Shown one piece after another: positions 1 through 64,000 of a DNA stretch of 64,000 nt (position 1 is its first letter; every line of letters starts with the position of its first letter). Under the pieces are notes generated by a model. That model ran no database searches. It was not told the DNA's origin and was given only the letters and a program-made list of their open reading frames with translations. A program made the translations under genes and the position numbers. Source of the DNA: Nicotiana tabacum (lineage: Eukaryota; Streptophyta; Magnoliopsida; Solanales; Solanaceae); the NCBI RefSeq assembly GCF_000715075.1, contig NC_134087.1, positions 130,005,518 to 130,069,517 of the forward strand, in the 5' to 3' direction.

Positions 1-486
1 CGAAAACCCTGGAAAATGCTCAATGACAAGTGCGCGGTTAATTTGCAGCAAATAACGGATAGTTAATCTCACGTTGGGCATGATGCACCTATACAGTTAA
101 GTGAATTGCTATATGTCTGCTACGAGAGCATGCGTCATTCCGGTATTTTTCCTCTTATTTCCCCCTTTTTTTTTCTTTTGTTTTCCTTTTATTTTATTTA
201 CATTTATTTTTCTTTTATATTTTTTTTTTTGTAGCAAAAGAAAATGCGATCGGATCCGATGAGGATTGCCTACGTATCACGATACTCACGTGAATCAGAT
301 CATTACGTAGTTTGAAAACACAAATGAGCGTGAAAGAAGCAAACTCTTTATTATTGAAGCAGTCTATTACAAACTACATTTTGCAAAAGAAAAAGCAAAC
401 TTTGAAAATAAACCTAGACTCAAAAAATAGACTAAAAATCACCCTGATGAAAAAACAGGCAGAAGATGCTAAGATACAGATTTGAC
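1..486 (-). other. Spacer between ORF1 and the off-window gag-pol of the left Ogre-like element
   Basis: No ORF is supported here. On the plus strand it holds a strongly T-rich tract (about 140-235), which is A-rich in element sense. At 268-312 there is one copy of a two-stem hairpin motif that recurs five more times in the Ogre-like elements of this window. Confidence 0.5.
268..312 (-). other. Two-stem RNA-like motif, copy 1 (between ORF1 and gag)
   Basis: In sense orientation: outer stem CTACGT/ACGTAG, conserved TGATT, inner stem CACG/CGTG, then AT and trailing GGCAA. The inner stem sequence differs from every other copy but pairing is kept. Confidence 0.6.
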
Positions 487-2535
487 CTATGAATGCATTA
501 TGGTTTTAAAAATTGGTTTCCGCGGGGCGTCGTTCGGCCTCGCCGCGGTCCTAGGCGTGAGATCCCTCTCAAGTTGCTCTAGCTCGTGCATAGTCTGCTT
601 GACATAAACCATTACTGCCGAGAGGAAGGTAACACTAGACATGTTCTCACATCGTAGACATCGTCTGGTGATGGCGTGGGCAACGGCTTTGATCCTATCT
701 CTGGTTTGCTTCTTCTCTACAAGCAGGTGCTTTATCTGATCGCTGCATATCTTGAAGACTTGAACATCTTGCACGTGTTGATGCTTCAATCGCCGTACTT
801 CCAATTTCATATGGGCTATTGTGTCATACCAGTATCTGCTTTCCATTTGGAAATCCTTGGCCTGACTAGCTGCTTTGATTTCAAGTGCTGCCATCTCTCT
901 CTTTATTTTAGCAACAGTCTTCTCGTGGTCGCCTTCCAATTGATTCAGGTGTCTGCGATGCTTATCTGCTCTTGTATCCCACTGTGCCTTGAACTCTGCT
1001 ATGATGTTTTCAGATTTCTCCAAACCATCTCGCCATTCCCTGATTTCACCTTTTAGACCTTTTATCAGCTGCTCGTCCGATCGACGCCTTGGTTGTCTAT
1101 CTGCGTCCAACCTTATTTGTTTGATCTGAGCTCTGAGCATCTCATTTTCTTGAGTTAACCTGTTCCGCTCTCCCAGATCGGTAGCAATCTGCACGCTGTG
1201 CTCGTATTTCATGCCTTCTACTTGTTGTTTTAATCTGCTGATTTCGGCACAATAACCTCTTTCCTTTGCTAACCAATCCCAATGCCTTTTCGATGACTCG
1301 GTGAAATCCCAGATGTGGGGTCTCTTAGCTGGCCTTTCATGCTCGAGTTCCCTTCTATACCATGCAAGGTAACCTGGCGCCGTTTCTCCCTTGGCTCGAT
1401 CCCGCACGCAAGTATCTGATTTCAAATATTGACCCTCATTCCAGATTTGGCGAATCCTCGCTTCTGGGAATTGTCCGTTAGGACTTATCTCAACTGTTTG
1501 AGTGCTAAGATCTTCCTCATGAGGTACTGTCTGGCACCTTCCGAACTGTCTCAAAACTCGGCAGGGTGCGTAAGGTTGAATGCTCTTAAGCCCCATCAGT
1601 AAGAAATGAGTTTTAGCCGCCGACATATATAAGATCTCATCAACAGGTAACCATCCCAACGCCCATTGTATTTGGCTGGCAGTAAGAGCTTGCAAGAACG
1701 AGGTCCATGCCAGGACTCCTTTAGGCCAAGTGATCTCTCTGGTTCTCGTGTAAGATTCTTCTATGCGGGTTTTTTCCGGGGAACCATGGCTCAATACCTC
1801 GGAATGATGGCAGAGGTGCTCGGTCATCCATATCTGTAGGAGCAAGTTACAACCTTCGAAGAAATTTCCCCCAGCTTTACAAGTTGTGAGAGCTCGAAAG
1901 ATGTCAGATACCACCATTGGCGCGAGAGTGCTGCCACTTTGCGTGAGTAAAGTGCTGGCGACCCCAGATATCTTCAAATCAATGTTTCCATCTTTTCTCG
2001 GAAATACCAGAAGACCCAGAAACGTTATCATGAACGCCACCCGTCTGTGCTCGTCCCACTTCTGACGAACTCCTTTGCTGCACAGTTTGTTGATTGGATT
2101 ATTGAATCCCCCCTCGTGACCGTATCTATCATATATGAAGCATGGAGTACAGAATCCGGCTGCTAGATCCGGGTTGTGGACCGTTCTAGGTATTTTCAAT
2201 GAATCCAGGAACCGATGTACCGTGACGACTCTTGGGGCGACCAAGTATTTTTCCCTCAACGGGAGTTCAGTATTCCCGATGTATCCGGCCATTTCTTCCA
2301 AAGTTGGGGTGAGCTCAAAATCAGAGAAATGGAAAACATTGTGCGCCGGGTCCCAATAGGTAACCAAAGCTCTTATGATATCTCCCCGAGGCTAGACTTC
2401 CAACAGACCCACAAGACCTTTCAAATATTTCTTAACCTCATTTTGTCCTTCAACACCTAGATCATTCCACCATAGCCGTAACTTGACAGGGATTTTGGTC
2501 ATTATTGAAAAATGTTCATTTTGCATCGTGCTCAT
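487..2535 (-). CDS. Ogre-like element ORF1, DUF7745-type protein with C-terminal coiled coil; one in-frame stop
   Basis: This is the extra ORF carried between the leader and gag in Ogre-type elements; its biochemical role is unknown. The natural start is the ATG at 2535 (reads MSTMQNEHF...), in frame with the long ORF. A TAG at 2392-2394, codon 48, interrupts it, so an ORF caller starts only at 2367. Without that stop the product would be about 682 residues. The N-terminal two thirds (for example VTYWDPAHNVFHFSDFEL and a WPKGVLAW stretch) resembles the plant DUF7745 family, which is related to plant mobile-domain proteins. The last third is rich in Lys, Glu, Arg and Gln with heptad-like spacing and is probably a long coiled coil. 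A single nonsense codon in an otherwise open 2-kb frame suggests recent decay or, less likely, a readthrough site. Confidence 0.8.
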
Positions 2536-2715
2536 CCTACACATTTATTAAGGTGATTTTAACAAAATTGACTGACTCAAAAAATATATATTTTTTTTAG
2601 AGAGGATCAAGCTTTGCCCACGGCCTTTAAACACTTCGGAGACAAAGATTTTAAGGCTGTGCGGGTCTAAAAAAACGCTAAACAAGACCCAAAGGTGGCT
2701 GTTTATGCAAAGTCA

Positions 2716-2739
2716 GCCTTCCGGCGTCCCTTTCGGGAA
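2716..2739 (-). promoter_or_regulatory. Double GNRA-tetraloop hairpin in leader (candidate packaging signal)
   Basis: In element sense this reads TTCCCGAAAGGGA followed by CGCCGGAAGGC. The first part folds as UCCC-GAAA-GGGA and the second as GCC-GGAA-GGC, so two adjacent stems are each capped by a GNRA tetraloop. The same pair is present at 58164-58187 and 58381-58404. Adjacent tetraloop hairpins in a retroelement leader resemble known packaging signals; the function here is inference. Confidence 0.5.
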
Positions 2740-2872
2740 CATTTGGCTATTTATGATAAAACAATGTCACCTGACTTATTTACGACTCTATTAAAAATTT
2801 GACACATCTTTTATTTGTTTATTTACTGATTTTTGGCTATTTAGAAAAATGGGGTTGAACCCGACGAGGGTT

Positions 2873-2915
2873 GCCTACGTATCTCACATCCGGTGAGAAT
2901 CAAACCGGCGTAGTT
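2873..2915 (-). other. Two-stem RNA-like motif, copy 2 (leader of left element)
   Basis: In sense orientation: outer stem CTACG/CGTAG, conserved TGATT after the left outer strand, inner stem CTCAC/GTGAG, then AT before the right outer strand and a trailing GGCAACCC. It occupies the same leader position as the copy at 58611-58653. Confidence 0.6.
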
Positions 2916-3891
2916 CGGGCATATCATGAATAGAGAAAACCTAGAAATCAAGAATAAGTATTATTATTTTGAAAAAAGATAAAGGCTAAAGAAAAAATAT
3001 TATATTTTTTTTTTTTTTGCAATATTGGACCATTAGTCTGAATTTATAAAAGGGGTACTACAAAAGAAACAACACACCTTTTGAATTATGAATTTTCCAT
3101 TTTTTTTTACTTTTAAAATAAATACTTTTTATTTTTTTTTTGATTTTGAAAGTGATAAAAGAAATTTTATTTTTTTTTTATTTTTTTATTTTTTTTTAAT
3201 AACTCTCAATAAAAGACAGTTTTTTTTTTTTAGAGAAAAAAAAAATCCGGCGAGGTTTTGACACTACTTGGACATTGGTTTTATTTTCCAAAAAATAAGT
3301 AATTATCTCCCCTACGCTGTTATTTTCCCCTTTTTAGGAACCGGTCGACATGCGGAACCGAAGCAAATAAATGCACAACACAAATAGGATGCACCAGGGT
3401 GGTCTTTTTTGTTTCAGGCTGCCTGTCCTAGACGGACCCAACCCCTGTGTTGAGTCCCCTAAGTCAAATGCAACATGATGCAGATAAGCGTTCCTACTAG
3501 GGATCCGGCATGAAGTCAAGTTATTCTAGGTTCGTAACCTGGGTATTTGTTCTAGACTGTGCACCCGAGCGGACAACTCGAGTCGAGGAGGGGGCTACGT
3601 ACCGGGGACCCGCGAGATCGTCCGGCTTTGTAACTTGTCCGTCCTCTTTCTTATTTTAGGTATTGACATTAACAGAATAGGGAGTCCCGACCAGCGAGCT
3701 TCTCCCCGGAAGTAAGAAGAGAAAGGTTTCGGCACAGTTTATATACAGTTCAGATAACATCAAAGCGGTAAAAGACAACATTTAGCACGTTACGCAAAAA
3801 ACATGTAATAAAAATCAGATAATAAAGCCAAATATAACAATTATTCTAAGCTCGAATTCTTGAACCCTGAACCAGTGGTTCTGGGTAAATG

Positions 3892-7122: not shown

Positions 7123-7866
7123 TGGAATGAGTAGGCGGATCTCGACCGTTAGATCAATTTAGATCTACGGTCTGGATCTGATGGCTTAAGTGGAACGGTG
7201 TCGTTTCGAGGGTAAGGGGTTTGGGTTGGTCCGGGTGGAAACGGGTCGGGTTCCTCAGTGGGTTGTGGGGAAATGATCTTGGCCGTTGATCAATCTGAGA
7301 TCAACGGCCCAGACCACACTGGATTAAAACGGTGTCGTTTAGACACCCTGGGCATCCGCTGGTGTTGGACCGGGCAGGCCTGGGTTTGGGCTGAGTTTGT
7401 TTGGGCCAATTTTGTTAAAATTGGCCCAAGTCCGGAAGGGAAGGGGTCTTTTCTTTTTTTTTATTATATTTTTTATTTATTTATTTCCTTTTCTTATTTA
7501 TTTTAAAAACAAAACTAAGCCAAAAAATCAAATTAAAATTAAATACACACTCAATACAATTATTTGCACACACACTAAAATATTTCAAAACAGGTAAAGT
7601 CAAACCAAATAAAATCACGGACGAAAATGCCTATTCATGATTTTCTATTTAACGACCGGATTACGGTTTGAATTATGCAGGACACATATATTTTTTTTGA
7701 ATTTTATTTTAATAAAGTAAATAAATAAAAATGGGCCAAAGTCACAAATAAATCAACAAGGTGCCGCACAGAAATCCGAAATTGTACAGCAGGGCCAATT
7801 ATATTTGTTTTTATTTCTTTTTGGAGCGATTGTCGTGTGAAACAAAAATCACGTGCTCACAATAAC

Positions 7867-8874
7867 TATAAGTGGGAAAACGTTGTATCAAAGAACCATC
7901 ATTCTTAAAACATGAATACATATAGGCTATCATAGCGTCTGATATATTGTACATAATGAACCTATGTCTACAAAGCCTCTAAGAGTATTTGACATCAAAT
8001 GGGACAGGGTACCGGCCTACCCATAAGTCTGTAGCAAAACTCTGACATGATGACTTATAGACTCGGCTGCACTCCGAATGAGGTGGAGTCTTACAGATCC
8101 TTCACTGAATGCTAACCTTGTCTACTATGAGGGCTCGTCAAACTAATTATCTATACATGCAGGCATGAATGCAACGTCGCCAACAAAAGGATGTCAGTAC
8201 GAATAATGTACCGAGTATGTAAGGCATGTAAATAAGTATTTAAAGGATATGGAAGAAACATGGAGTAAAGGACCCAACATGTAAGTCTGGATAGTTCTGT
8301 AAATCATGAAATATTTATAATGTTATGCATATGCGTATGAATGTCATATAATGCATAGGTATATACGTACATAACATCATCAAGCCTCTGAGGCCATCCC
8401 ATCATATCATCTCAGCCACTGTGGGTAAAATCATCAACGTATACCAGCTGATCAAGTTGTGGTACGTATATAACGCCGTAAATTTTTCCCATACCCCATA
8501 TACATATAATATATGTGTATATAACGTCATCTGGTCATGAGTAAATGTGCATGTATAAATGAATGCAATGTATAATGAAGTAAGTCAATACGATCTCTTG
8601 GAATGTCATGAGACCCATGAATAGACGATATAACATTAAGACATGTGAGGAATCAGGAACGTGGGCACCTCTAGTAATTCTATGAATAGAGTCATTTATG
8701 AAAGTTGCGCGTTTACTCATTTCGTTTGTATCATATGGATCATGCCAAAAAGAAAGAAAGGATAGCCTTAACATACCATACTTGAGGAATTTATCAAACA
8801 CTTTTACTTGCACTAACACACACACACACACACATACACAATCAAAACAAGCCATTTATTAGCATTTGAACCTC

Positions 8875-46797: not shown

Positions 46798-47163
46798 TGT
46801 CACACCTCCTTTTTCCGCGCCCGCGAGGGTACGAGGGAGTTTTTTCCAATTAAAGGACAATCGAAACGGGATTTATTTATTTATTTCAGAGTCGCCACTT
46901 GGGAGATTTAGGGTGTCCCAAGTCACCAATTTTAATCCCGAATCGAGGAAAATAATGACTCTATATTATAGTCTGCGTACCAGAAATCCGGATAAGGAAT
47001 TCTGTTAACCCGGGAGAAGGTGTTAGGCATTCCCGAGTTCCGTGGTTCTAGCACGGTCGCTCAATTGTTATATTCGGCTTATTTATCTGATTTTATACAA
47101 GTGTGAACTTATGTGCAAAATTTAAACTTTCAACCGCTTTTATCATTTAACTGTTTTTATCAA

Positions 47164-47770
47164 GAATTTGCAACGTTGTGAAAATGTATCTCGAACCACG
47201 TTACAATCAATGTACCCGTGATCGTCGACATACTTTGACTCCGTTGAGATTTGGATTTGGGTCACATCAATGCGCACCCGAGTTTAAGGAAATTGAATTA
47301 TTAAAGGCGTGCCTAACGCAACTAGCGTATTGTCATTTTGGGGAAGGCCGTAAAATTCGCTAACCGGCCTATCCCGAATTCTAAGTGTTTTAATATATAT
47401 ACATTTAGAGGGCCCCGCAACTTTGTATTTTTTATTTGTCGAGGCTCATCTCATTTTATTTTTTATTAGAATTTGCAACGTCATGGGAATGCATCTCAGA
47501 CCACGTCACAGTCAATGTACCCGTGATTAGAGACACATTTCGATTCCGTTGAGATTTGGATTTGGGTCACATAAATGTGCACCCGAGTTTAGGGAGATAA
47601 CATTATTAAAGGCGCGCCTAAAGCAACTAGCGCATTATTATTTTGGGCTAGGGCCGTAAAATTTGTTAAACGGCCCGTCCCGGAATCTAAGTATTTAATG
47701 CATATATTTTGTGAGGGCCCCGCAATCTGTCCCTTTATTTGGCGAGGCTCGTCTCATTTTATTTTTATTA
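47164..47770. repeat. Tandem duplication of about 305 bp inside the inner LTR
   Basis: Units starting GAATTTGCAACGT at 47164 and 47469 run in parallel through the motifs CTCGAACCACGT/CTCAGACCACGT and GAGGGCCCCGCAA. The 5' LTR has the same pair (about 60630 and 60935). The outer and left LTRs have one copy. Confidence 0.85.
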
Positions 47771-49040
47771 TTATTATTATTATTATTATTTTTTTTATTT
47801 TTTTTTTATATTTTTTAAAGGGATGCCATTTTTTACGCCTTTAACCATACTAAACCTTACAGCCTCTTTACAAATACAATCTCATAACTTGTCAAGATTT
47901 AATAAAAGAAGTTAAGCGAATGAGTGTTTCAGGCGTAGTAACAACAGGTACTAATACTAATTTTGTCCAAATAAACTAAGACAATGAAGGGCCGAGCGAA
48001 TCGACGTCAAACTGTGTCTTAGGACTACTAATACAACTAAATCAAATGACATCAAGTAAACAATAATAACATAACGCAGAATGAGCAAAAATGCGTACGA
48101 TGAAAACATAAGCAGAAAATTATCATACCAATTTCTATATTGCATTTTTTGAACATTCCGTAACATTTCCTCGTCTAATGCTTGAAGTTTACTAACCTGG
48201 ACAGACAGAGACAGATAGAGCCATGGACCAAACCTCAACATCGACTTCAACGAATAACCGCGACCGGGAAACCATAGAAAAGGTTATCAAAGCTCGGACG
48301 GAATAGCTCGCGCCAGAAACTCGAACACGAACGGACTAACAATGAGTCATGGCTACAACTGACTTTTCCAGGCGGTCATTTGGGCGTGGGGGAGCTGAAC
48401 GGAACAGCAGCGAGGGCCGGATTCAATGGAGGATCGTCGGACTAGTTTTTTTTTTGGTTACGACGGAGGAGAAGAAATGGCCGTGGGCTGGTGGTTTGGA
48501 TGTAGCGTCGACCGGCAGTGATGAACCCGAACCACAGCAGCAGTGGCTGCTGCTCGAACAGCGCAACAATGGTGACAGCAGTAGGGTCGACGAGCAGTAG
48601 AGCTTGTTGGCTGAGGAGGAGAGGTTGTTTGACGATGAGGGAGTGAAGCTGGGGGCAATGACGACGAAGGCGAAGCAGCAGTACTCGCCGGATTTAATGG
48701 AGGATGGAAGCGATGGTCGTTCGGACGTGAGGGAGTGGCGTCGCGACTGGTTTTTGGGTTGCGACGGGTGTGATGGAGCTGGGCATCGTTGGTGGTGGTG
48801 TTGAACTGGTTTTTTGGACGTGAGGGCAACTGGTTTGGTCGTTTTCTGGACCGGGGATGCGACGCGGGGAAGTAGGGTTCTTGTTAGGTTTTTCGTTGGG
48901 GGGGGGGGGGGGTCGGGATCCGATCAGTAGGGTTTGCTCTTTCTTCTTCTTTTGAAGAAGAAAGAGGAACAGTGGTCCCCGTCCAAATTTTTCCCAAGTC
49001 CTTTAAAAATGTGTTTTCCGTGTTTTTGTAATATAATGCC

Positions 49041-49095
49041 CATCAAAATGAGCCCCACGCGTGGTGGGGTTCGAGGCATATGTCCCCCACGCGTG
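49041..49095. repeat. Pair of short GC-rich palindromic repeats in the LTR
   Basis: CCCCACGCGTGGTGGGG occurs twice about 37 bp apart. Each can fold as CCCCAC/GTGGGG with a 5-nt loop. The other LTR has the pair at about 62518-62565, the second copy altered to GTGGCGGGG. Confidence 0.8.
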
Positions 49096-49685
49096 GTGGG
49101 GTTCCCCACGTGTCCTGGACACGGTTTATTATGGGCTAGGTCCGAAAATTAGGCCTAAAACCGGGTAGTTTGAATCCGAATATTATTCTTTTGCCCGGAC
49201 CCGAGAAATAGGAAAACGTTGCTTAACTAGTCCTATGTAAACAAAATAACTACCAAAAATAAGACTAGTATTTAAGCAGAACTATATCTTTTTAAATAAT
49301 TTTCAAGATTTAAAATAGCTACAAAATATTAATAAAACTATTTTTGTAATTTTCGTTTTTTAAATATTAAGAAAAAATATGAAGCAATATTTTTTTTGTA
49401 TTTTTCAAAGTTAAAATGACTATAAAACCTTAATAGAACTATATTTTATTTTTATTTTTTGTAATTTTTCGGAATTATATAAAGTACAAAAATAAAGTGC
49501 AATTTTTGTATTTTTCAAGTTTATGAGAGATACATAAACTAAAATTTATATATATATTTTTCAAATTTTTCTTTTTGCAACGAAATAAAGTAAAATAGTT
49601 AAAATAGCTATACTAGACCCAATTTCACATATTCACGCTAAAAATGTGAAAATTCTCGGGGAGGGTCAAAAATCACGTGCTTACA

Positions 49686-49698: not shown

Positions 49699-50560
49699 GA
49701 CTGGAAACACGAAGAGTTTTCCGACAAAGAACGACTAGACGTGTTTTTGACCCGACCATTACTTGGACGGACTACACTTAAGGAAAGGGAGGGAATGTGA
49801 CCGAGCCCTGGTATCTGAGCTGCCTACATATCCTTGGTTATACAGGAATCAGGCCACGTGTAGTTCGGGAATGAGAGAGATAGTGAAGTGTACCGAGGTG
49901 AAGAGCCGATCGAGGTGCCGTTCCGTTGAGGTTCTGGTCCGCGGTCCTGTCATTACATCAAAAAATGATAACTGAAAAAGACTAACTAAACCTATCAGCT
50001 GCTAGTTACAAGAATTCCTATCTCTAAGTCTTCTGAAACTTGATCTTGAGTCTTGAATGGTGCTTCATACAGACTTTTGGATTTGAACCTTGATACTTGC
50101 TAGTTGTAGGCGCTAGTTCTTGAGCAGACCACATCTGTTCTCCACATCCGTGCTTCGGATTCATTCATTTTTTCTTTTTCTTTTTTTTTTGTTTTTGTGA
50201 CTAGCTTTTGTTGACCCTCTCAGACTGTTGACTCGCATTCTTGGGGCGAGCTTCTTGTTGCTTCTATCTTGGATTGAGTGCTGGGGACTTCTATCGTAGC
50301 CTTCTGCCTTCCATTTTCTCCGGTGCCTCGGGACATCTTTTTTCTTTTTCTTCTTAGATTCCGAACTGGGACTCATCTCGTGGGTCGTTTCGATCTATGT
50401 GGCTCGAGGTTAGACCTGCGGGAGAAAACAAACGAACGAAATTTTCTGCCCTAGTTTCACTAGGAAAATTTCGTTAATTACTCGCCAGGAAGTTCATAAG
50501 ATTGATGAAAGAGGATATGCATGCTCAGTTCAGGGTTGGAGCCCTAATACCGACTAGCTG
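49699..50560 (-). other. 3' untranslated region of the inner element
   Basis: No coding frame is supported. It carries one two-stem motif (49822-49865) and a T-rich tract (50165-50195), and leads into the telo-box array. Confidence 0.45.
49822..49865 (-). other. Two-stem RNA-like motif, copy 3 (near the 3' LTR)
   Basis: The outer stem here is CTACA/TGTAG, a compensatory change from CTACG/CGTAG in the other copies. TGATT is conserved; the inner stem is TCCT/AGGA. GGC follows the right outer strand, as in the other copies. Confidence 0.6.
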
Positions 50561-50562
50561 GG

Positions 50563-52990
50563 GAAAGGTTCAATTTAGGGTTTAAAACCCTAACGTCGAA
50601 CAAAGGAAGAATTCAGTTTAGGGTTTAAAACCCTAATGCTGACTAAGGAAAAATTCAGTTTAGGGTTTAAAACCCTAATGCTGATTGAATGAAAAAAGTT
50701 CAGTTTAGGGTTTAAAACCCCAATGCTGATTAAACGGAAAATTCGGTTTAGGTTTTAAAACCCTAATGCTGATTGCATGAAAAAAGCTCAGTTTAGAGTT
50801 TAAAACCCTAATGCTGGCTGAAAGGAAAAAGTTCAGTTTAGGGTTTAAAACCCTAATGCTGACTAAAAGGAAAATTCAGTTTAGGGTTTAAACCCTAATG
50901 CTGATAGCATGGAAAAGCTCAGTTTAGGGTTTAAAACCCTAATGCTGGTTGAAAGGAAAAAAGTTCAGTTTAGGGTTTAAAACCCTAACTCTGGCTGAAT
51001 GGAAAGAGTTCAGTTTAGGGTTTAAAACCCTAATGCTGACTAGAGGAAAGAGTTCAGTTTAGGGTTTAAAACCCTAATGCTGACTAAAAGGAAAATTCAG
51101 TTTAGGGTTTAAAACCCTAATGCTGATTGCATGAAAAAGCTCAGTTTAGAGTTTAAAACTCTAATGCTGGCTGAAAGGAAAAAGTTCAGTTTAGGGTTTA
51201 AAACCCTAATGCTGACTAAAAGGAAAATTCAGTTTAGGGTTTAAAACCCTAATGCTGATTGCATGAAAAAGCTCAGTTTAGAGTTTAAAACTCTAATGCT
51301 GGCTGAAAGGAAAAAGTTCAGTTTAGGGTTTAAAACCCCAATGCTGACTAAAAGGAAAATTCAGTTTAGGGTTTAAAACCCTAATGCTGATTGGCTGGAA
51401 AAAGCTCAGTTTAGAGTTTAAAACTCTAATGCTGGCTGAAAGGAAAAAGTTCAGTTTAGGGTTTAAAACCCTAATGCTGACTAAAAGGAAAATTCAGTTT
51501 AGGGTTTAAAACCCTAATGCTGATTGGCTGGAAAAAGCTCAGTTTAGAGTTTAAAACTCTAATGCTGGCTGAAAGGAAAAAGTTCAGTTTAGGGTTTAAA
51601 ACCCTAATGCTGACTAAAAGGAAAATTCAGTTTAGGGTTTAAAACCCTAATGCTGATTGCATGAAAAAGCTCAGTTTAGAGTTTAAAACTCTAATGCTGG
51701 CTGAAAGGAAAAAGTTAGGTTTAGGGTTTAAAACCCTAATGCTGATTAAAGGAAAAAAAGTTCAGTTTAGGGTTTAAAACCCTAATGCTGACTGCATGGA
51801 AAGCTCAGTTCAGGGTTTAAAACCCTAATGCTGGCTGAATGAAAAAAGTTCAGTTTAGGGTTTAAAACCCTAATGTTGACTAAAGGGAAAATTCAGTTTA
51901 GGATTTAAAACCCTAATGCTGACTAAAAGGAAAAGTTCAGTTTAGGGTTTAAAACCCTAATGCTGACTAAAGGAAAAATTCAGTTTAGGGTTTAAAACCC
52001 TAATGCTGATTGCATGGAAAAGCTTAGTTTAGGGTTTAAAACCCTAATGTTGGCTGAAAGGAAAAAAGTTCAATTTAGGGTTTAAAACCCTAATGCTGAT
52101 TAAAGGAAAAAATTCAGTTCAGGGTTTAAAACCCTAATGCTGATTGCATGGAAAAGCTCATTTAGGGTTTAAAACCCTAATGCTGGCTGAAAGGAAAAAA
52201 GTTCAGTTTAGGGTTTAAAACCCTAATGCTGATTAAAGGAAAAAAGTTCAGTTTAGGGTTTAAAACCCTAATGCTGACTGCATGGAAAGCTCAGTTTAGG
52301 GTTTAAAACCCTAATGCTGACTAAAGGAAAAATTCAGTTCAGGGTTTAAAACCCTAATGTTGATTGCATGGAAAAGCTCAGTTTAGGGTTTAAAACCCTA
52401 ATGCTGGCTGAAAGGAAAGAAATTCAGTTTAGGGTTTAAAACCCTAATGCTGATTACATGGAAAAGCTCAGTTTAGGGTTTAAAACCCTAATGCTGGCTG
52501 AAAGGAAAAAAGTTCAGTTTAGGGTTTAAAACCCTAATGCTGACTAAAGGAAAAATTCAGTTCAGGGTTTAAAACCCTAATGCTGATTGCATGGAAAAGC
52601 TCAGTTTAGGGTTTAAAACCCTAATGCTGGCTGAAAGGAAAAAAGTTCAGTTTAGGGTTTAAAACCCTAATGCTGACTAAAGGAAAAATTCAGTTCAGGG
52701 TTTAAAACCCTAATGCTGATTGCATGGGAAAGCTCAGTTTAGGGTTTAAAACCCTAATGCTGGCTGAAAGGAAAAAATTCAGTTTAGGGCTTAAAACCCT
52801 AATGCTGACTAAAAGGAAAATTCAGTTTAGGGTTTAAAATCCTAATGCTGATTGCATGGAAAAGCTCAGTTTAGGGTTTAAAACCCTAATGCTGGCTGAA
52901 AGGGAAAAAGTTCAGTTTAGGGTTTAAAACCCTAATGCTGATTAAAGGAAAAAAAAAAAGTTCAGTTTAGGGTTTAAAACCCTAATGCTG
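50563..52990. repeat. Tandem array of about 55 palindromic telo-box units
   Basis: Units of about 40-48 bp each contain TTTAGGGTTTAAAACCCTAA, a perfect inverted pair of the plant telo-box AAACCCTAA. TGCTGA/TGCTGG plus a variable linker (CTAAAAGGAAAATTCAG, TTGCATGGAAAAGCTCAG or GAAAGGAAAAAGTTCAG) separates them. In 51060-51720 units alternate in a higher-order repeat of about three monomers. In this zone one monomer type is TTTAGAGTTTAAAACTCTAA, with both arms changed. It lies on the 3' side of the element, where Ogre elements usually carry tandem repeats. Confidence 0.97.
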
Positions 52991-53430
52991 ACTGGCTGGG
53001 GACAAAGTTCGAGAATACTAAACGATCTTTTTTTTTTGAATTTTCTTGTTTTAGTAGAAGATAAAAGGGAGTTTCGTGGAAACTTACCTTTCGAGTGAAT
53101 TCATCATTGCCAAAGTATTTCTTGTACCCGTGTACCTTCTTCTTTGGGTGACACCTGCTTCTTGCACGGTTGTCTTGGATTATACCTGTTTCAAACTTTT
53201 CAGACAAAGAAGAATTGTTAGTTCGGAAATGACGGTCGGTTTGGTGACCTTGATCGTTCCTGTTGCTTTGTTGCGTCCTTATTTCTGTCGCGAAGTCCTG
53301 CCGTTGATTGGATTCAAATGGCGAAACTCTTTTGACTGCTCAGGCTTTGTATTTCCAGATTTTGTGATTATTTGCCTCGCAAGGCTCTCTTTTATTTTTT
53401 TTTTATTTTTTTTTTTTGGGTCCCATCTTG
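52991..53430. other. Spacer between arrays in the inner element
   Basis: Open plus-strand frames exist (from 53076) but run into low-complexity repeats and are antisense to the element. No family is recognised. Confidence 0.35.
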
Positions 53431-53804: not shown

Positions 53805-54660
53805 GATTTTTGGCATCTTAGGAGAAATATTCATCAGACTAAGATTTCGATCCTACGAGAAGGTTCATCAGACTAGGTCTCTATCTTAGGAGAAAAAATT
53901 CGTCGGACTAAGATTTTGATCCTAGGAGAAGGTTCGTCAGCCTAGGTCTTGTTTTTTTTGGTATCCTAGGAGAAAGATTCGTCAGACTAGGTCTTTTCTT
54001 TTTTGGTATCTTAGGAGAAAGATTCATCGGACTAAGATTATGATCCTAGGAGAAGGTTCATCAGACTAGGTCTCTATCTTAGGAGAAAGATTCGTCGGAC
54101 TAAGATTTTGATCCTAGGAGAAGGTTCGTCAGACTAGGTCTCTATCTTAGGAGAACAATTCGTCAGACTAAGATTTTGATCCTAGGAGAAGGTTCGTCAG
54201 ACTAGGTCATTTTTTGTTTTTGGCATCTTAGGAGAAAGATTCATCAGACTAAGATTTTGATCCTAGGAGAAGGTTCATCAGACTAGGTCTCTATCTTAGG
54301 AGAAAGATTCGTCGGACTAAGATTTTGATCCTAGGAGAAGGTTCATCAGACTAGGTCTTTTATTTTTTTTGGTTATCTTAGGAGAAAGATTCATCAGACT
54401 AAGATTTTGATCCTAGGAGAAGGTTCGTCAGACTAAGTCTCTATCTTAGGAGAAAAATTCGTCGGACTAAGATTTTGATCCTAGGAGAAGGTTCATCAGA
54501 CTAGGTCATTTTTTGTTTTTGGTATCTTAGGAGAAAGATTCATCAGACTAAGATTTTGATCCTAGGAGAAGGTTCATCAGACTAGGTCTCTATCTTAGGA
54601 GAAAGATTCGTCGGACTAAGATTTTGATCCTAGGAGAAGGTTCATCGGACTAGGTCTTGT
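53805..54660. repeat. Tandem array of about 33-bp half-units (about 66 bp full unit)
   Basis: It alternates (C)TTAGGAGAAAGATTCATC(A/G), GACTAAGATTTTGAT and CCTAGGAGAAGGTTCATCAG, ACTAGGTCTCTAT. Roughly two dozen half-units are readable, some with inserted T-rich runs. CCTAGG at the unit start is a short palindrome. Confidence 0.95.
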
Positions 54661-57535
54661 TTTTTTTTATTCTTTTTTTTTAATTATTATTATTCTTTTT
54701 TTTTGCATAGCTTCTTCCTTCGAAGACTACCTCCCTTGAGAGTCGTTTTGCCTTTCCCCGAAAGGAACCGCTGAGGATACCGACTTTCCAACCTTGTGTT
54801 GGACTCCTCGCAACTGCTAGGGATAACACTGTTGGGGAATTATTTACTTACATGTTAGGGGTACTTGACTTCCAGAAAATTTTCTAAATGGAAGGAAAAT
54901 TTTCTGCCCCAGTTTGATAATATCCCTGTGCATGCATTTCTGGCATCAATGCCATTTCCCTTACCTGTTTCAAATCAGACAAAATTTGTTAGTTTAAAAC
55001 ATGGTGGTTGGTTGTGATACTCCCACTGGGATGGTTTTCCCTTTCTCCTTCCTTGTTCTACGCTCCACAGCTTGTTGGGGATGATATTAAGTGCTGGGGA
55101 CAATCCCTTTCTGCTGGGGATATCCCTCTTCTTTTGCGACATAGCTCGGAAACTGGCATTTCCCCGACCTTTTAGTCTAGTATGAATTTACCAAATCATG
55201 CTCACTGCTCTCCCTGCTCTGTTCATGGGCCTTGGCCTTGAGGTTTATAACTTTTGATAAAGGCAATGGTATCCCTCTTGACACTTGTCAACCCTTCTGT
55301 CAATTCCCTTTTTGCTAGGGATATCTTTTTGACACTGGCCTCGCGTTTGTTCCCTGTTGACTATACCACTTGGATGTACTAGTCAGATCTCATTTTGGAA
55401 AGCTGATGGCCTATTTTGAAGTCAATTCACACTTGTTCTGACCAAACAGACTCTATTGGGGATTTTTTTTATGAAGAAAAAAAAAGATAAAAGAGAACAG
55501 AATAAAGGACGAAAGGAAAAAATGACTCTTTAACAAAAGAAACTATAAATGAAAACCTTTCAAACGCAGATACCGACTCTAATGGCCATGACATGCGTAT
55601 GTGGCCTATTCTCTACCGTCAATCATCTTTCAAGATCTTCAATTGGCGATTCCCCATCTGATTCTCAATCTTATTTGACTTGTAGTGCCCGAAGGGTTTT
55701 CACTATCAGGTCTCTCTCATTTTTGGTTCTTCTCTCAGCTTTCATCGCCTTATGGTGCCTGTGAAGGTTTTCACCAATAAGACTCTCTCGTTTTATATCT
55801 CTCTCCAGCTGGGGATTTGGAGTGTTGCCGGTATGACTCTTTCTGTTGGAGATTAGAGTCCTTTCTGCTGTGGAACAGAATGTTATGTGCGCCGGTAAGA
55901 CTCTTCATTTGTCTGGCTTGGCATCTTTTGAAGACTGATCAGAAGGTCTTTCTTTGGACCGTAGTGTGGGTTTTGGATAGGCTAGAAAGAAAAGGTATAA
56001 AAGGCTCAAAAATACATTAATTTTTGGGTTATTAGTTACAACCTTCGGAATTAGATTTATTTACAACAAACGCAACCTTTGCCCCAGTTTCTTGCCTGGG
56101 GATATTTTAATTGATTTTTTTTCGTTTTCAAAACTATGACCGAGCCGTGAAGCGCCTACGTATCCTCTTTGAGGAATCAGGTCAAACGTAGTTCCCAACT
56201 CCTCTTTTCATTCCGACTTTCTTTTGTTTTTCTTTGTTATCAATTTCTTTTCTTTTCTTTTTCTCTTTTTTTTCTCTTTTTTCGTTTTGTTGTTTTCTTT
56301 CTTTCTCTTTTTTTCTTCTTTTTCGTTGCTACTGATTCCGAACGAGGGGTATGAAAGAAAATAAATAAGGCCCAAAAGGGGTTAACGAAGGATAAAGTGT
56401 TTGGGTAGCAGAACAAAATGCCTTCGTCATTCCAGTCTTCAAAACATGCCAAGTGCGAACAACACAATCAAACAATAGATTTATAGTCTCTTCCGATGGT
56501 GCTGGACTTGACAATTATATTCAACATATGTTTGTTCATTTGTCACTTCTAAGCACCGTTGGGCGACACTCTCATTATCATGACCGACCCTCATGCCAAT
56601 TTGGCGAATCTTGCTTTTAACGGTTTTCTTTGTGCTTAACTTGCCCCAGTTCCACATGACTCGAGCTCTGAATAATCTCAAACCGTCCTTATTTTCTTTA
56701 AATGGTCTGATTGCCTTTCCAGGGTTTTATGATTAACTTTAAAGACTAGGCCCAAAGTGTGTGTGCATGTCATGTCCCTAGAATCGGCATTGAATGAAAT
56801 GATAAAAGGACTTAAACAAAAGACGACTGGAACTAACAAAAGACCGACTTTGTATTAGACTACCGGCGAAATGGTTTGAATAATAAAACAAACAAAACAA
56901 CCAGAATAAAATCCTAACACAAACTGGACAAAATTTAAACAAACTGCTATGACAAAATGGAAAGATAAGAAGGTTTGACACAGGACAAAATCCAAATTAC
57001 AACCTTAATAATCCGGACAACAGAAATGACAACAAAATAAGCCACTACAAGCTTCTCTCTTGCTAACCAAGGAACGGAGCGTCCTCCCACTTTATCAAAC
57101 TTGGCATCTTAGCCACTGAGCTTTGCATTAGTATTGTCAAGACCATTGCCAACTTCAATATCATTACCCTTAGTCAACAAGTCCCCAATAGGACTGGAAT
57201 GCTTCTATCATCAGGCCTGATCCCCGCAGAGTGTGCATCATGAGGTGCAAGTAAAGGATTCCGGGTGTCATTGTCCGGCTTACCACAAACCAACCACCTT
57301 AACTTATTTGCAAAACAAACAGGTTAGAATGGACTCAGTAAAGTCGGTCCTCATTATTGACAACATCTTTTTCTTTTCTTTTTTTTTCGATGTTTTTTTT
57401 CTACTCTTTCTCTTTTAGTTTTTTTTCATTGTTTTTTCCCTTTTTTTTTTCCTTTTTTTTCTTTTCTTTCTCTTTTCTTTTTTTCATTTTGCTTTTTTTC
57501 ATTTTTATTTTTTTGTTGTGGTCGAATCTTATGGA
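54661..57535 (-). other. Inner element interior without recognisable pol
   Basis: This is where gag-pol would be expected. I found no RT, integrase, protease or zinc-knuckle motif on either strand. It holds T-rich tracts (56220-56320, 57360-57530), GCTGGGGA words (55060-55130) and two-stem motif copies at 56154 and 57540. Confidence 0.5.
56154..56193 (-). other. Two-stem RNA-like motif, copy 4
   Basis: In sense: outer stem CTACGT/ACGTAG, conserved TGATT, inner stem CCTC/GAGG with AAA loop, AT, then GGCGC. Confidence 0.6.
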
Positions 57536-57539
57536 GATT

Positions 57540-57582
57540 GCCTACGTATCATGACCCCGCATGAATCAGACTTTGCGTAGTT
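57540..57582 (-). other. Two-stem RNA-like motif, copy 5
   Basis: In sense: outer stem CTACG/CGTAG, conserved TGATT, inner stem CATG/CATG with CGGGGT loop, AT, then GGCAA. Confidence 0.6.
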
Positions 57583-58163
57583 CGGACCAATAAAAGATAA
57601 ACAATAATGAACATTTTTTCTTTTCACTTTCATATTAAAACAAACTGGGTTTCAAAGGTTTAAAGATGACCTACAAACTTGAAAATCAAATAACCCATAT
57701 ACTTTAATCAAGAGATTTATAAACTCAAAAACAAAAGGCTAACTCCCTTTCTCTGTTCGACAAATGCAACCAAATAGTTATTTTTGCAAATGTGGCCCCT
57801 TCCGAATTTCACATGAATTTTGAGGCCGGGGAGGATTATTTTATGACACTTTACAAACTTGTCCATTCTTTTACGAAAATAGCCTTTCGACCACTGAAAG
57901 ATACTCTAAGGCTATTTCGGCAAGAACGGTTTAAGACGCGGCCGAAACTGGCTCGGCTTATTTTATTTTTTCATATTTGTTTTTTGACTAAACATCCAAA
58001 TGGCATTCACCCGACCGTTGACTCTTTGTTTCTTTTTTCAAATTATGATAAAAACTTGGTGTTGCAAAACACGGCCCTTCAGCGTCTCGGGGACGAAGCT
58101 TTCTTAAGGCTGTGTGGGTCCATATCTCAAAATGACCCAAAGGTGGTTGTTTATGCCAAGTCA

Positions 58164-58404: not shown

Positions 58405-58610
58405 CATTCGGCTATGTCTTGATAAAACTGCGTCACCCGACTTCTTTATGAAATTTGACATATATTTTTGCTATTTTTTGTAAAAGGGGAAGTTGGACAT
58501 CACCCGACTTATTTATGAATAAAAACTTGACATGTTGTTTTTTTTTTATTATTTATTATTTGTTTTTGGGTTTTTAGCAAAAAAAAAAGGGGTTGGACCC
58601 GATGAGGGTT

Positions 58611-58653
58611 GCCTACGTATCTCACATCCGGTGAGAATCAAACCCGCGTAGTT
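58611..58653 (-). other. Two-stem RNA-like motif, copy 6 (leader of inner element)
   Basis: In sense: outer stem CTACG/CGTAG, TTGATT, inner stem CTCAC/GTGAG with CGGAT loop, AT, then GGCAACCC. It is near-identical to the copy at 2873-2915. Confidence 0.6.
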
Positions 58654-59464
58654 CGGGCAAATAAGAATAAGTAGGCAAATAATAATAAGCAGATGAACTA
58701 ACCTTTTTTTTGAATTTTCGTTTAAAAGAACTACTTTAAAAGAAGCGAGGAAATAATATTTTTTGATTGATTTTCTTTTTAAAAGAAAGACTAATATATT
58801 TTTTTTGAATTTTCATTTTTTTTTATTCTAAAGAAAAGAAGAAAATATTTTCAGAATTTTACCTTTAATATAAGAAATGCTTCTAAAATGTTTTTTTTTT
58901 TGAGTTTTGAATTTTCTAAAGAAGAATCAAAATATTTTCGGATTTTTTTTATCTATTTTATCCTTTTGAATTTTGAACTTTCTTTTGAATTTTTTTTTGG
59001 ATTATATATATACTTATTTTTGGAACAAATAATAAAATCACATTCAACGTCGGACTCTTTTTATTTTTATTTCTGGTATTTTCATAGACAAACAAAATAA
59101 AATAAATAAAACATTTTAAAAAAAACAAACTCTTTTTCATTTTCATTTAATGGCAAAACAAACTATTTTCTTTAATATTTAAAAAAAAAACCAGACAGAA
59201 CAATGATGATTTTTTTTTATTTTTCCTTTGCTTTTAATATAACAAACTAACAAAACATTTTTTCATTTTCAAAATTTCGGCAGAGTTTCAACTCTACTCG
59301 GACTTCTATGCTGTTATTTTCTCCCTTTTTTTCACGATTTTCTTATATGTGGAAAATGATGACAACATACAAAATCTTTTTGAATTTTCATGCTTTGTTT
59401 TTATTTGTATTTTTATTTTTTATATTTATTATTTCTTTCAAAAATGTGGCATGGGAGGCATAAC

Positions 59465-60263: not shown

Positions 60264-63151
60264 TGTCACACCTCCTTTTTCCGCGCCCGCGAGGGTACGA
60301 GGGAGTTTTTTCCAATTAAAGGACAATCGAAACGGGATTTATTTATTTATTTCAGAGTCGCCACTTGGGAGATTTAGGGTGTCCCAAGTCACCAATTTTA
60401 ATCCCGAATCGAGGAAAATAATGACTCTATATTATAGTCTGCGTACCAGAAATCCGGATAAGGAATTCTGTTAACCCGGGAGAAGGTGTTAGGCATTCCC
60501 GAGTTCCGTGGTTCTAGCACGGTCGCTCAATTGTTATATTCGGCTTATTTATCTGATTTTATACAAGTGTGAACTTATGTGCAAACTTTAAACTTTTAAC
60601 CGCTTTTATCATTTAACTGTTTTTATCAAGAATTTGCAACGTTGTGAAAATGTATCTCGAACCACGTTACAATCAATGTACCCGTGGTCGTCGACATACT
60701 TTGACTCCGTTGAGATTTGGATTTGGGTCACATCAATGCGCACCCGAGTTTAAGGAAATTGAATTATTAAAGGCGTGCCTAACGCAACTAGCGTATTGTC
60801 ATTTTGGGGAAGGCCGTAAAATTCGCTAACCGGCCTGTCCCGAATTCTAAGTGTTTTAATATATATACATTTAGAGGGCCCCGCAACTTTGTATTTTTTA
60901 TTTGTCGAGGCTCATCTCATTTTATTTTTTATTAGAATTTGCAACGTCATGGGAATGCATCTCAGACCACGTCACAGTCAATGTACCCGTGATTAGAGAC
61001 ACATTTCGATTCCGTTGAGATTTGGATTTGGGTCACATAAATGTGCACCCGAGTTTAGGGAGATAACATTATTAAAGGCGCGCCTAAAGCAACTAGCGCA
61101 TTATTATTTTGGGCTAGGGCCGTGAAATTTGTTAAACGGCCCGTCCCGGAATCTAAGTATTTAATGCATATATTTTGTGAGGGCCCCGCAATCTGTCCCT
61201 TTATTTGGCGAGGCTCGTCTCATTTTATTTTTTTATTATTATTATTATTATTTTTTTATTATTTTTTTTTTATATTTTTTAAAGGGATGCCATTTTTTAC
61301 GCCTTTAACCATACTAAACCTTACAGCCTCTTTACAAATACAATCTCATAACTTGTCAAGATTTAATAAAAGAAGTTAAGCGAATGAGTGTTTCAGGCGT
61401 AGTAACAACAGGTACTAATACTAATTTTGTCCAAATAAACTAAGACAATGAAGGGCCGAGCGAATCGACGTCAAACTGTGTCTTAGGACTACTAATACAA
61501 CTAAATCAAATGACATCAAGTAAACAATAATAACATAACGCAAAATGAGCAAAAATGCGTACGATGAAAACATAAGCAGAAAATTATCATACCAATTTCT
61601 ATATTGCATTTTTTGAACATTCTGTAACATTTCCTCGTCTAATGCTTGAAGTTTACTAACCTGGACAGACAGAGACAGATAGAGCCATGGACCAAACCTC
61701 AACATCGACTTCAACGAATAACCGCGACCGGGAAACCATAGAAAAGGTTATCAAAGCTCGGACGGAATAGCTCGCGCCAGAAACTCGAACACGAACGGAC
61801 TAACAATGAGTCATGGCTACAACTGACTTTTCCAGGCGGTCATTTGGGCGTGGGGGAGCTGAACGGAACAGCAGCGAGGGTCGGATTCAATGGAGGATCG
61901 TCGGACTAGTTTTTTTTTTTGGTTACGACGGAGGAGAAGAAATGGCCGTGGGCTGGTGGTTTGGATGTAGCGTCGACGGGCAGTGATGAACCCGAACCAC
62001 AGCAGCAGTGGCTGCTGCTCGAACAGCGCAACAATGGTGACAGCAGTAGGGTCGACGAGCAGTAGAGCTTGTTGGCTGAGGAGGAGAGGTTGTTTGACGA
62101 TGAGGGAGTGAAGCTGGGGGCAATGACGACGAAGGCGAAGCAGCAGTACTCGCCGGATTTAATGGAGGATGGAAGCGATGGTCGTTCGGACGTGAAGGAG
62201 TGGCGTCGCGACTGGTTTTTGGGTTGCGACGGGTGTGATGGAGCTGGGCGTCGTTGGTGGTGGTGTTGAACTGGTTTTTTGGACGTGAGGGCGACTGGTT
62301 TGGTCGTTTTCTGGACCGGGGATGCGACGCGGGGAAGTAGGGTTCTTGTTAGGTTTTTCGTTGGGGGGGGGGGGGTCGGGATCCGATCAGTAGGGTTTGC
62401 TCTTTCTTTTTCTTTTGAAGAAGAAAGAGGAACAGTGGTCCCCGTCCAAATTTTTCCCAAGTCCTTTAAAAATGTGTTTTCCGTGTTTTTGTAATACAAT
62501 GCCCATCAAAATGAGCCCCACGCGTGGTGGGGTTCGAGGCATATGTCCCCCACGCGTGGCGGGGTTTCCCACGTGTCCTGGACACGATTTATTATGGGCT
62601 AGGTCCGAAAATTAGGCCTAAAACCGGGTAGTTTGAACCCGAATATTATTCTTTTGCCCGGACCCGAGATATAGGAAAACGTTGCTTAACTAGTCCTATG
62701 TAAACAAAATAACTACCAAAAATAAGACTAGTATTTAAGCAGAACTATATCTTTTTAAATATTTTTCAAGATTTAAAATAGCTACAAAATATTAATAAAA
62801 CTATTTTTGTAATTTTCGTTTTTTTTAAATATTAAGAAAAAATATGAAGCAATATTTTTTTTGTATTTTTCAAAGTTAAAATGACTATAAAACCTTAATA
62901 GAACTATATTTTATTTTTATTTTTTTGTATTTTTTCGGAATTATATAAAGTACAAAAATAAAGTGCAATTTTTGTATTTTTCAAGTTTATGAGAGATACA
63001 TAAACTAAAATTTATATATATATTTTTGAAATTTTTCTTTTTGCAACGAAATAAAGTAAAATAGTTAAAATAGCTATACTAGACCCAATTTCACATATTC
63101 ACGCTAAAAATGTGAAAATTCTCGGGGAGGGTCAAAAATCACGTGCTTACA
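60264..63151 (-). repeat. 5' LTR of the inner Ogre-like element (2,888 bp)
   Basis: Same length and layout as the LTR at 46798-49685, including the 305-bp duplication, poly-G run and CACGCGTGG repeats. Small differences noticed include GTGGTCG for GTGATCG, GCCTGTCCC for GCCTATCCC and a shorter poly-G run. The PBS at its left end identifies it as the 5' LTR. Confidence 0.9.
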
Positions 63152-64000
63152 ATTATTATTATTTTTTTTATCGAGAATTGCAACCTCGTGAAAATATATC
63201 TCGAACCACGTCACAGTCAATGTACCCGTGTTCGTCGACACACTTCGACTCCGTTGAGATTTAGATTTGGGTCACATAAATGTGCACCCGAGTATAGGAA
63301 AATAACATTATTAAATACGCGCCTAAAGACTAACGCGTTGTTATTATTTTGGGTAGGGCCGTAGAATTTTCTAAACGGCCCGTCCCGGAATCTAAGTATT
63401 TTAAAACAAATAATTATTGAGGGCCCCGCAATTTTGTATTTATTTTGGCGAAGCACGCCTCATTTATTTTAAGGATATCCTAAAGTGACTACATTTATAT
63501 TAAATTCGTCTCTAAAATAAAATAGAAAAAATCTTAATTAATTACATGCTTTTTAAAAAAAGCGTAACATATTAAATGCTAGATTAAGACAAATGTTAAC
63601 GGAAAGGAATATTACTAAAATTGAAATTATAAATAAAATACGGAATCGACAAATAATATATTCAAAAGAAACTAATTATCCTATAACTAGATTAAACTCG
63701 CATTGTTAGATGACTTGAACCGTTGGAATTAATTATTTACAACTATTTGAAACTAGAATCAATCTTAATTACTAATGCATATTCGAAAATTTATTAAATT
63801 TAAACATTAACTCATCTTGTTTGAACTCAAATCATGCCATAATGCCTAATTCGCGAAATTAATTTAAATTCATGCTTTAACTAAATTTAGCTACATGTTC
63901 ACGATTAACCTAATGTTGACAATATTAAAACCTTCATAGCTAGTGAACTTAATCAGTTTTGCCAAACCGATTCACTAAAGACCAACTTATGTTATTTTCC
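63152..64000 (-). repeat. Outer Ogre-like LTR, right segment (continues off window)
   Basis: It resumes the LTR interrupted at 46797: after the target duplication it reads GAATTGCAACCTCGTG and then the CTCGAACCACGTC and GAGGGCCCCGCAA blocks once. AAGGATATCCTAAA follows, as in the left LTR near 4610. It therefore belongs to the left element's LTR type, not the inner one's. Whether a body follows to the right cannot be seen. Confidence 0.8.

Follow-up and report, generated by a model that had tools for sequence, protein, structure and literature searches.

The comparative evidence gathered here argues strongly for a folded RNA of about 66 nt, built from three stems and one pseudoknot, that recurs along retrotransposons apparently of the Ogre type. 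We analysed a window of 64,000 nt from contig NC_134087.1 of Nicotiana tabacum (GCF_000715075.1; hereafter the host genome), in which all six copies, carried by two elements, A and B, read on the minus strand. What could such a module do? Tentatively, with a probability of roughly 0.45, we read it as a cis-acting structured module for the stability or export of transposon RNA that would be recognised by a host factor.

Architecture of the RNA module

An earlier note, made from the letters of this window alone, had described six dispersed copies of a two-stem element. All six are present on the minus strand where it placed them and with the layout it gave: an outer stem CTACG/CGTAG, which is CTACA/TGTAG in the copy at 49822, and an inner stem with five different sequences among the six copies, every one of them paired. 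Both stems are real, but the description was incomplete, as the element does not end at GGC: each copy extends 18-25 nt beyond it, and this part adds a third hairpin, P3, and completes a pseudoknot, PK. Likewise, the spacer regarded as variable does vary, but its last bases are the 5′ strand of PK and pair with bases behind P3, and to the constant TGATT can be added a C that follows it in all six copies, so that the inner stem P2 opens with T-A and C-G. Nor do six copies amount to six independent cases, since two pairs of them (2873 and 58611, 268 and 57540 in the note's numbering) are homologous in place: 2851-2916 corresponds to 58589-58654 in the leaders of elements B and A, and 246-313 to 57518-57583. 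Even so, compensated changes in both P2 and P3 separate the last two.

In the sense RNA, the strands follow one another as GAA, the P1 5′ strand CUACG, a spacer whose end is the 5′ strand of PK, UGAU, P2, UA, the P1 3′ strand CGUAG, GC, the hairpin P3, a C and the 3′ strand of PK. P2, beginning with U-A and C-G, is nested in P1 and bounded by UGAU and UA, while PK joins the end of the P1-P2 spacer to the bases after the nearly fixed C. The parts of the index copy and the remaining copies of the window are as follows.

58589..58654, minus strand: index copy, complete, at the leader position of element A (58611-58653 in the earlier note)
58654-58652, minus strand: GAA of the index copy
58651-58647 with 58617-58613, minus strand: P1 of the index copy
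58645-58641 with 58594-58590, minus strand: PK of the index copy
58640-58637, minus strand: UGAU of the index copy
58636-58631 with 58625-58620, minus strand: P2 of the index copy
58619-58618, minus strand: UA of the index copy
58612-58611, minus strand: GC of the index copy
58609-58606 with 58600-58597, minus strand: P3 of the index copy
58595, minus strand: conserved C of the index copy
57518..57583, minus strand: copy 2 of element A, PK 3/4 paired
56136..56194, minus strand: copy 3 of element A, of the same type as the copy after gag-pol in locus L205, P3 partly decayed
49797..49866, minus strand: copy 4 of element A, separated from the 3′ LTR by 111 nt, P1 CUACA/UGUAG, PK GUGGCC/GGUCAC
2851..2916, minus strand: leader copy of element B, upstream of ORF1 of element B
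246..313, minus strand: copy downstream of ORF1 in element B

Five of the six window copies have a PK of 4-6 pairs, at least four of them contiguous, and the copy at 57540 forms three of its four; of P3, the copy at 56154 retains a remnant. The extension by P3 and PK was predicted from the window copies before other copies were examined, and a copy behind a hAT transposase (L115, see below) then fitted it, with seven pairs in P3 and six in PK. A covariance model built from 20 copies (R1, comprising P1, P2 and P3 without PK) recovers the six in the 64-kb window at E 4.9e-19 to 1.2e-13, matches that arise by construction because the six were among the 20, and finds no further copy there up to E = 10. 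Under nested folding without the pseudoknot, the six single copies have energies close to those of shuffled sequences (z -0.02 to -0.48), while L115 reaches z = -2.40. Folding energy thus does not distinguish the window copies from shuffles, and the argument for the fold depends on covariation and conservation.

Covariation and conservation of the fold

Two alignments were used: A3, the 20 diverse copies behind R1, and A4, 95 copies found by R1 in 77 host loci (L124-L206 minus L128, L134, L143, L151, L202 and L203, which were set aside for overlap or on grounds unrelated to the test; some retained loci overlap), which reduce to 82 distinct rows when identical ones are counted once. In A3, 93.5% of the pair cells are paired, as compared to 82.9% after shuffling, with 57 two-sided cells vs 19.2 and a covariation score of 0.434 vs 0.222; none of 500 shuffles reached the observed paired cells, two-sided cells or score. 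The 82 rows of A4 behave alike (91.8% vs 81.3% paired, 226 vs 81.9 two-sided cells), again with 0/500 shuffles as high on paired cells, two-sided cells or covariation score. By helix, pairing in A4 amounts to 98.5% for P1, 90.1% for PK, 94.9% for P2 and 83.2% for P3, and PK is 93.3% paired in A3; sliding the partners by 1-3 columns leaves 17.0-39.5% (A3) and 19.5-38.6% (A4) paired. Two further measures did not rise above shuffles, namely the number of pairs with two-sided change (31/500 on A3, 48/500 on A4) and of further pair types (238/500 and 103/500, respectively). These cells should not be taken for events: position types form families, and the number of independent double changes is lower than that of cells. 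Since the search patterns fixed TGATTC plus most or all of GATACGTAGGC, the P1 3′ strand (P1′) and the first two P2 pairs were preselected and say little; free of this selection are the P1 5′ strand (except for GAAC in the second pattern), the rest of P2, P3 and PK, the last of which also lies outside the model.

All four PK pairs show two-sided change. PK is fully paired (4/4) in 65 of the 82 distinct rows and lacks at least one pair in the other 17; half of its 28 strand combinations pair fully, among them GACC/GGUC, GGUC/GACC, GGUU/AACC, GAUC/GAUC, GACU/AGUC and GGCC/GGCC, and the other 14, found in those 17 rows, do not. Shuffled partners reached the PK total in 13/20,000 trials and, with Watson-Crick pairs alone, in 0/20,000; a Watson-Crick run of at least four, counted from the UGAU side, occurs in 46/82 rows. 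This 82-row test supersedes an earlier one in which L115 was misplaced (29 combinations, 95/116 pairs vs a mean of 85.2, reached in 2/10,000; from 90 copies, 3 were dropped for want of a P1 strand and then 5/87 for want of an anchor). Genome-wide, copies with GACU as PK 5′ strand end in CAGUC 97 times and in CGGUC three times (100 of 4,211 CRGUC matches). In every one of the 82 rows, one or more bases of the spacer stay unpaired beside a Watson-Crick PK, as an H-type pseudoknot requires; in L115, the final U-G pair would consume the PK spacer. The base directly after the P1 5′ strand (A4 column 9) is C or U in 82/82 distinct copies and possibly crosses the PK groove.

The sense strand is favoured as the folding one, because G-U cells outnumber A-C cells (109 vs 53 in the 82 rows, 21 vs 12 in A3). 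When the first P1′ base is not C, it forms A-U in 76, G-U in 19 and no pair in 5 cases (100 of 14,907 matches, counted by eye); since the majority of the A-U cases seem to belong to a single position type, they represent few events. CpG decay, considered as the origin of the P1 double change, is a possible cause of single changes, given that both P1 strands contain CpG.

To what extent is the fold more conserved than its surroundings? Seven to eight hand-picked copies at each of four positions were compared pairwise. Mean identity of the motif was 0.84, 0.81, 0.75 and 0.77, as compared to 0.44, 0.42, 0.34 and 0.41 for the upstream and 0.34, 0.43, 0.38 and 0.53 for the downstream flanks, in the same order. 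Flanks of single pairs reached up to 0.87 and exceeded the motif downstream in L176/L155 (0.84) and, just so, upstream in L174/L182 (0.71). Between element A and a further element, L206, the motifs of copies 1-3 are 98-100% identical and their flanks 34-87%. On the whole, the surroundings appear to have changed while the fold persisted, which would point to selection rather than to recent duplication. The latter, which the earlier note had named as what would speak against it, is at odds with motifs more alike than their flanks (0.75-0.84 vs 0.34-0.53). Its central claim of a selected RNA structure with compensatory changes is strongly supported by the conservation island, by PK pairing and by covariation, which is strong against shuffles in the wider alignment of 82 distinct copies as well.

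Carriers and copy number

The carriers in the window are delimited by the following features.

60264..63151, minus strand: 5′ LTR of element A, 98.9% identical to 46798-49685
46798..49685, minus strand: 3′ LTR of element A
487..2367, minus strand: ORF1 of element B (plant mobile domain / DUF7745, 626 aa), between two copies

From its leader copy to its 3′ LTR, element A holds no sense ORF of 100 aa. Beyond the window, one element of each of two spacing types was read for ORFs. In L204/L205, an element of autonomous type, a copy is followed by an ORF1 frame (plant mobile domain), 196 nt, a second copy, gag, RT, RH, an additional RH (RVT_3), integrase, a stop, 330 nt and a third copy; together with ORF1 of element B, this gives the features of Ogre: an ORF1 with plant mobile domain, gag, RT, RH and an extra RH before INT. 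L206, which has the spacing of element A, carries three copies found by pattern and a fourth found by R1, and shows no sense ORF above 75 aa in its 3.5 kb. By domain order alone, the carrier appears to match an Ogre-type retrotransposon, element A itself being non-coding. In the available part of a published account of Ogre (Tat lineage; PMC6317226), 57% of Ogre elements have an ORF1 with plant mobile domain, and Ogre and Retand share an additional RH located between RH and INT; that part makes no mention of the RNA module, and neither 'secondary structure' nor 'untranslated' appears in its text.

Several other features of these elements may be recorded. Some elements have two leader-type modules, as in L206 (one at 468-533, ~230 bases apart) and L150 (1487-1552 and 2304-2369, ~820 bases apart). 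Element A contains a tandem array between copies 3 and 4 (window 50525-53000, spacings of ~44 and ~133 bases) and a second one at 53807-54668 (steps of ~68-82 bases), and repeats of ~305 bases lie in and beside its LTRs (47154-47770, 60620-61238 and 63158-63470). On the sense strand, A-rich tracts follow the copies at 57540 and 268 (57348-57520 and 138-235) and precede the copy at 56154 (56186-56335).

How abundant is the module? Across the 3.996 Gb of the host genome, TGATTCN{4,34}GATACGTAGGC has 61,298 matches vs 2 for its reversed form, and a second pattern, with a non-C first P1′ base and GAAC upstream, has 14,907 vs 4. As the two sets cannot overlap, the genome holds at least 76,205 copies (6 for the reversed patterns). 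Among the first 100 of the 61,298 places, counted by eye, seven triplets are spaced like L204/L205 (2.4-2.8 and 7.7-7.8 kb apart) and five like element A (1.0-1.5 and 1.2-1.4 kb apart). From this spacing and the few loci read, we infer that most host copies sit in Ogre-type elements. In viral contigs, a loose form of the core pattern gave 115 matches in 114 loci, which by eye resemble phage or coding sequence, and a separate pattern gave seven further loci; two of the 114, L033 and L113, contain GATACGTAGGC without TGATTC. Applied to 57 of these 121 loci (50/114 plus all seven; L033 included, L113 not), R1 gave at best 18.9 bits, and 17.3 for L033.

A core-pattern scan of a genome collection of 84,980 prokaryote species returned one match, L115. 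It scores 40.3 bits with R1 (E 6.1e-9), lies outside the training set and starts ~52 nt past the stop codon, on the same strand, of a gene for the C-terminal part of a hAT transposase (PF05699, PF14372). Among named proteins, this transposase is most closely related to those of Dipteronia and Acer (73-80% identity over 40-79% of the query sequence); an unnamed protein, 96% identical, is closer still. The contig, JAFUBK010000065.1, belongs to a public 'Bacilli' MAG of the roe deer gut and is chimeric, bacterial sequence being joined to plant sequence (L115 at ~7645-7953, L123 at 1600-3018); its bacterial side encodes MreB, SpoIID, RpiB and an SSB gene without its N-terminal half. A bacterial origin of L115 was considered and rejected: the contig is bacterial only to ~7645, where SSB is truncated, and the transposase beyond is plant-like. 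Since the missing half of SSB is absent from all three frames in between, bacterial sequence should not reach the motif.

Taken alone, the pattern match proves nothing for L115, because ~10 exact matches are expected by chance in the 257-billion-base collection at equal base frequencies and one was seen; the R1 E-value scaled to the collection is ~0.02. The six-pair PK outside the model and the site behind a plant transposase are further evidence against chance. R1 found the module behind host hAT genes in 0/20 stretches of 411 bases (20 of 90 scored matches); those genes are only 29-33% identical to the L115 transposase. The hAT argument rests on one copy.

Possible functions and known systems

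What, then, is the physiological role of the module? Two arguments narrow the choice. First, the module should serve some step other than reverse transcription or the translation of ORFs in the element itself, because non-coding elements keep it and a DNA transposon of another plant has one; RNA export and survival are needed by both carriers, and we therefore prefer host-read stability or export. Second, the helices are variable but paired while P1, the internal loop, GGC and the C are nearly fixed, which suggests a junction that is read by a protein or does chemistry. P2, P3 and PK would be scaffolding, free to change in sequence as long as they pair, and P1, the UGAU/UA loop, GGC and the C would form the surface read by a factor, possibly a host protein that mediates survival or nuclear export of the transposon RNA, with several copies acting additively. 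In its action the module would resemble an ENE or constitutive transport element, though it is neither of them. Speaking against a host factor, the copies of non-coding elements could be carried along without need, and leader copies are unusual for a pure 3′-end stability element. That this fold is common to unrelated transposon orders, i.e., LTR retrotransposons of the host and a hAT element of a maple-like plant, as a portable pass read by the host, we consider rather unlikely.

Alternatively, each copy could bind Gag or another element protein as a packaging or dimerisation signal, marking the RNA for virus-like particles. The retention of copies by non-coding elements, which need Gag in trans, and their multiplicity (four in element A, triplets in others) agree with this; the hAT DNA transposon lacks Gag but still has a copy, albeit as one case, and we judge packaging the next most likely reading, though an unlikely one.

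An improbable role is that of a roadblock to 5′-3′ decay, where the pseudoknot would ring the 5′ strand in the manner of an xrRNA and fragments starting at the module would persist. The compact pseudoknot with its conserved junction bases and the position of copies upstream of ORF1, gag-pol and the 3′ LTR would suit it, but the module has no Rfam match and its strand order is unlike that of the familiar xrRNA classes. Translation of the flanked ORFs, by internal entry, reinitiation or a 3′ cap-independent enhancer, is improbable too. The earlier note had proposed a role at ORF boundaries, and copies do flank ORF1 in element B and, in L204/L205, the single element of autonomous type that was read, both ORF1 and gag-pol, which there fill the triplet gaps of 2.4-2.8 and 7.7-7.8 kb. 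Element A and L206, however, retain copies without those ORFs, which disfavours a role tied solely to translation of a neighbouring ORF; besides, copy 4 of element A has only an LTR behind it, and the hAT copy comes after its ORF.

Could the junction do chemistry? HDV-like ribozymes share the strand order P1, P2, P3 hairpin, P1′, P4 hairpin, P2′, with a P1 of ~7 pairs, usually a G at the cleavage site, a P1.1 formed by the P3-hairpin loop and the G's after P1′, and a catalytic C in J4/2. The module matches this double nested pseudoknot order, is associated with retroelements and has a C just before the last strand (89/95 rows), near the position of the HDV catalytic C though with a linker of only 1-3 nt. 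It differs in its short P1 of only five pairs, starting with C in 93/95 rows, in the GAA conserved 5′ of the would-be cut (91, 95 and 93 of 95, with 30 loci selected for GAAC), in an extra conserved UGAU/UA loop and in copy-3 types whose P2 loops, AAA or GAAA without C, cannot form P1.1; Rfam returned no ribozyme match either. Because several cuts would destroy the genomic RNA that is to be copied, and P1 and P1.1 depart from those of HDV-like ribozymes, self-cleavage, and with it a new class of small ribozyme with HDV strand order, is very improbable. Least probable of all is a bistable switch in which P1 and PK alternate and never coexist: nested minimum-energy folds take PK and P2 (and P3 in some) with P1 open for 58611, 56154 and L115, and P1 without PK for 57540 and 268, but the free spacer base kept by all 82 rows with a Watson-Crick PK is what a simultaneous pseudoknot needs.

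Is the module new? Rfam 15 gave 0 matches for the whole window and, for the index copy and L115 at E<=10, only matches far below gathering scores, in support of the earlier note's view that this is not a named RNA family, as far as Rfam 15 reaches. Literature searches by element names, structure words and motif letters, mostly in open papers, yielded no description of the module. Similar sequence may occur in other plant genomes.

Retroviral constitutive transport elements are structured cis elements of retroelement RNA, as is the module. The MusD transport element (MTE) is likewise such an element and, according to the available part of its description, contains a pseudoknot (PMC12786077); the module differs from both kinds of transport element in its lack of an Rfam match. 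The ENE of Evade, a plant retrotransposon, raises RNA stability and mobility according to the accessible portion of the report (PMC12501189). The ENE and the module are both cis-acting structures in the RNA of plant LTR retrotransposons, and a role in survival is proposed here by analogy. In contrast to the ENE as characterised in that portion, the module has no U-rich internal loop flanked by G-C pairs, its loop being the spacer and UGAU opposite UA, and without such a loop it offers no partner for a poly(A) tail; it has a pseudoknot instead, and occurs in several copies, the leader included.

Structured cis elements of transposon RNA are, in sum, already known, but no Rfam 15 family or description found shows this architecture: three stems and a covarying pseudoknot, repeated along an element, retained even by elements that code for nothing, and also placed after a DNA-transposon gene of another plant. 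Being abundant, short and easily transcribed, the module makes export, survival or packaging of large plant retrotransposon RNA directly testable. If the fold is indeed common to unrelated transposon orders, the bolder and rather unlikely reading, it would constitute a portable RNA pass for the plant host machinery, numbering >76,000 in one genome and recurring around the ORFs of the elements that carry it.
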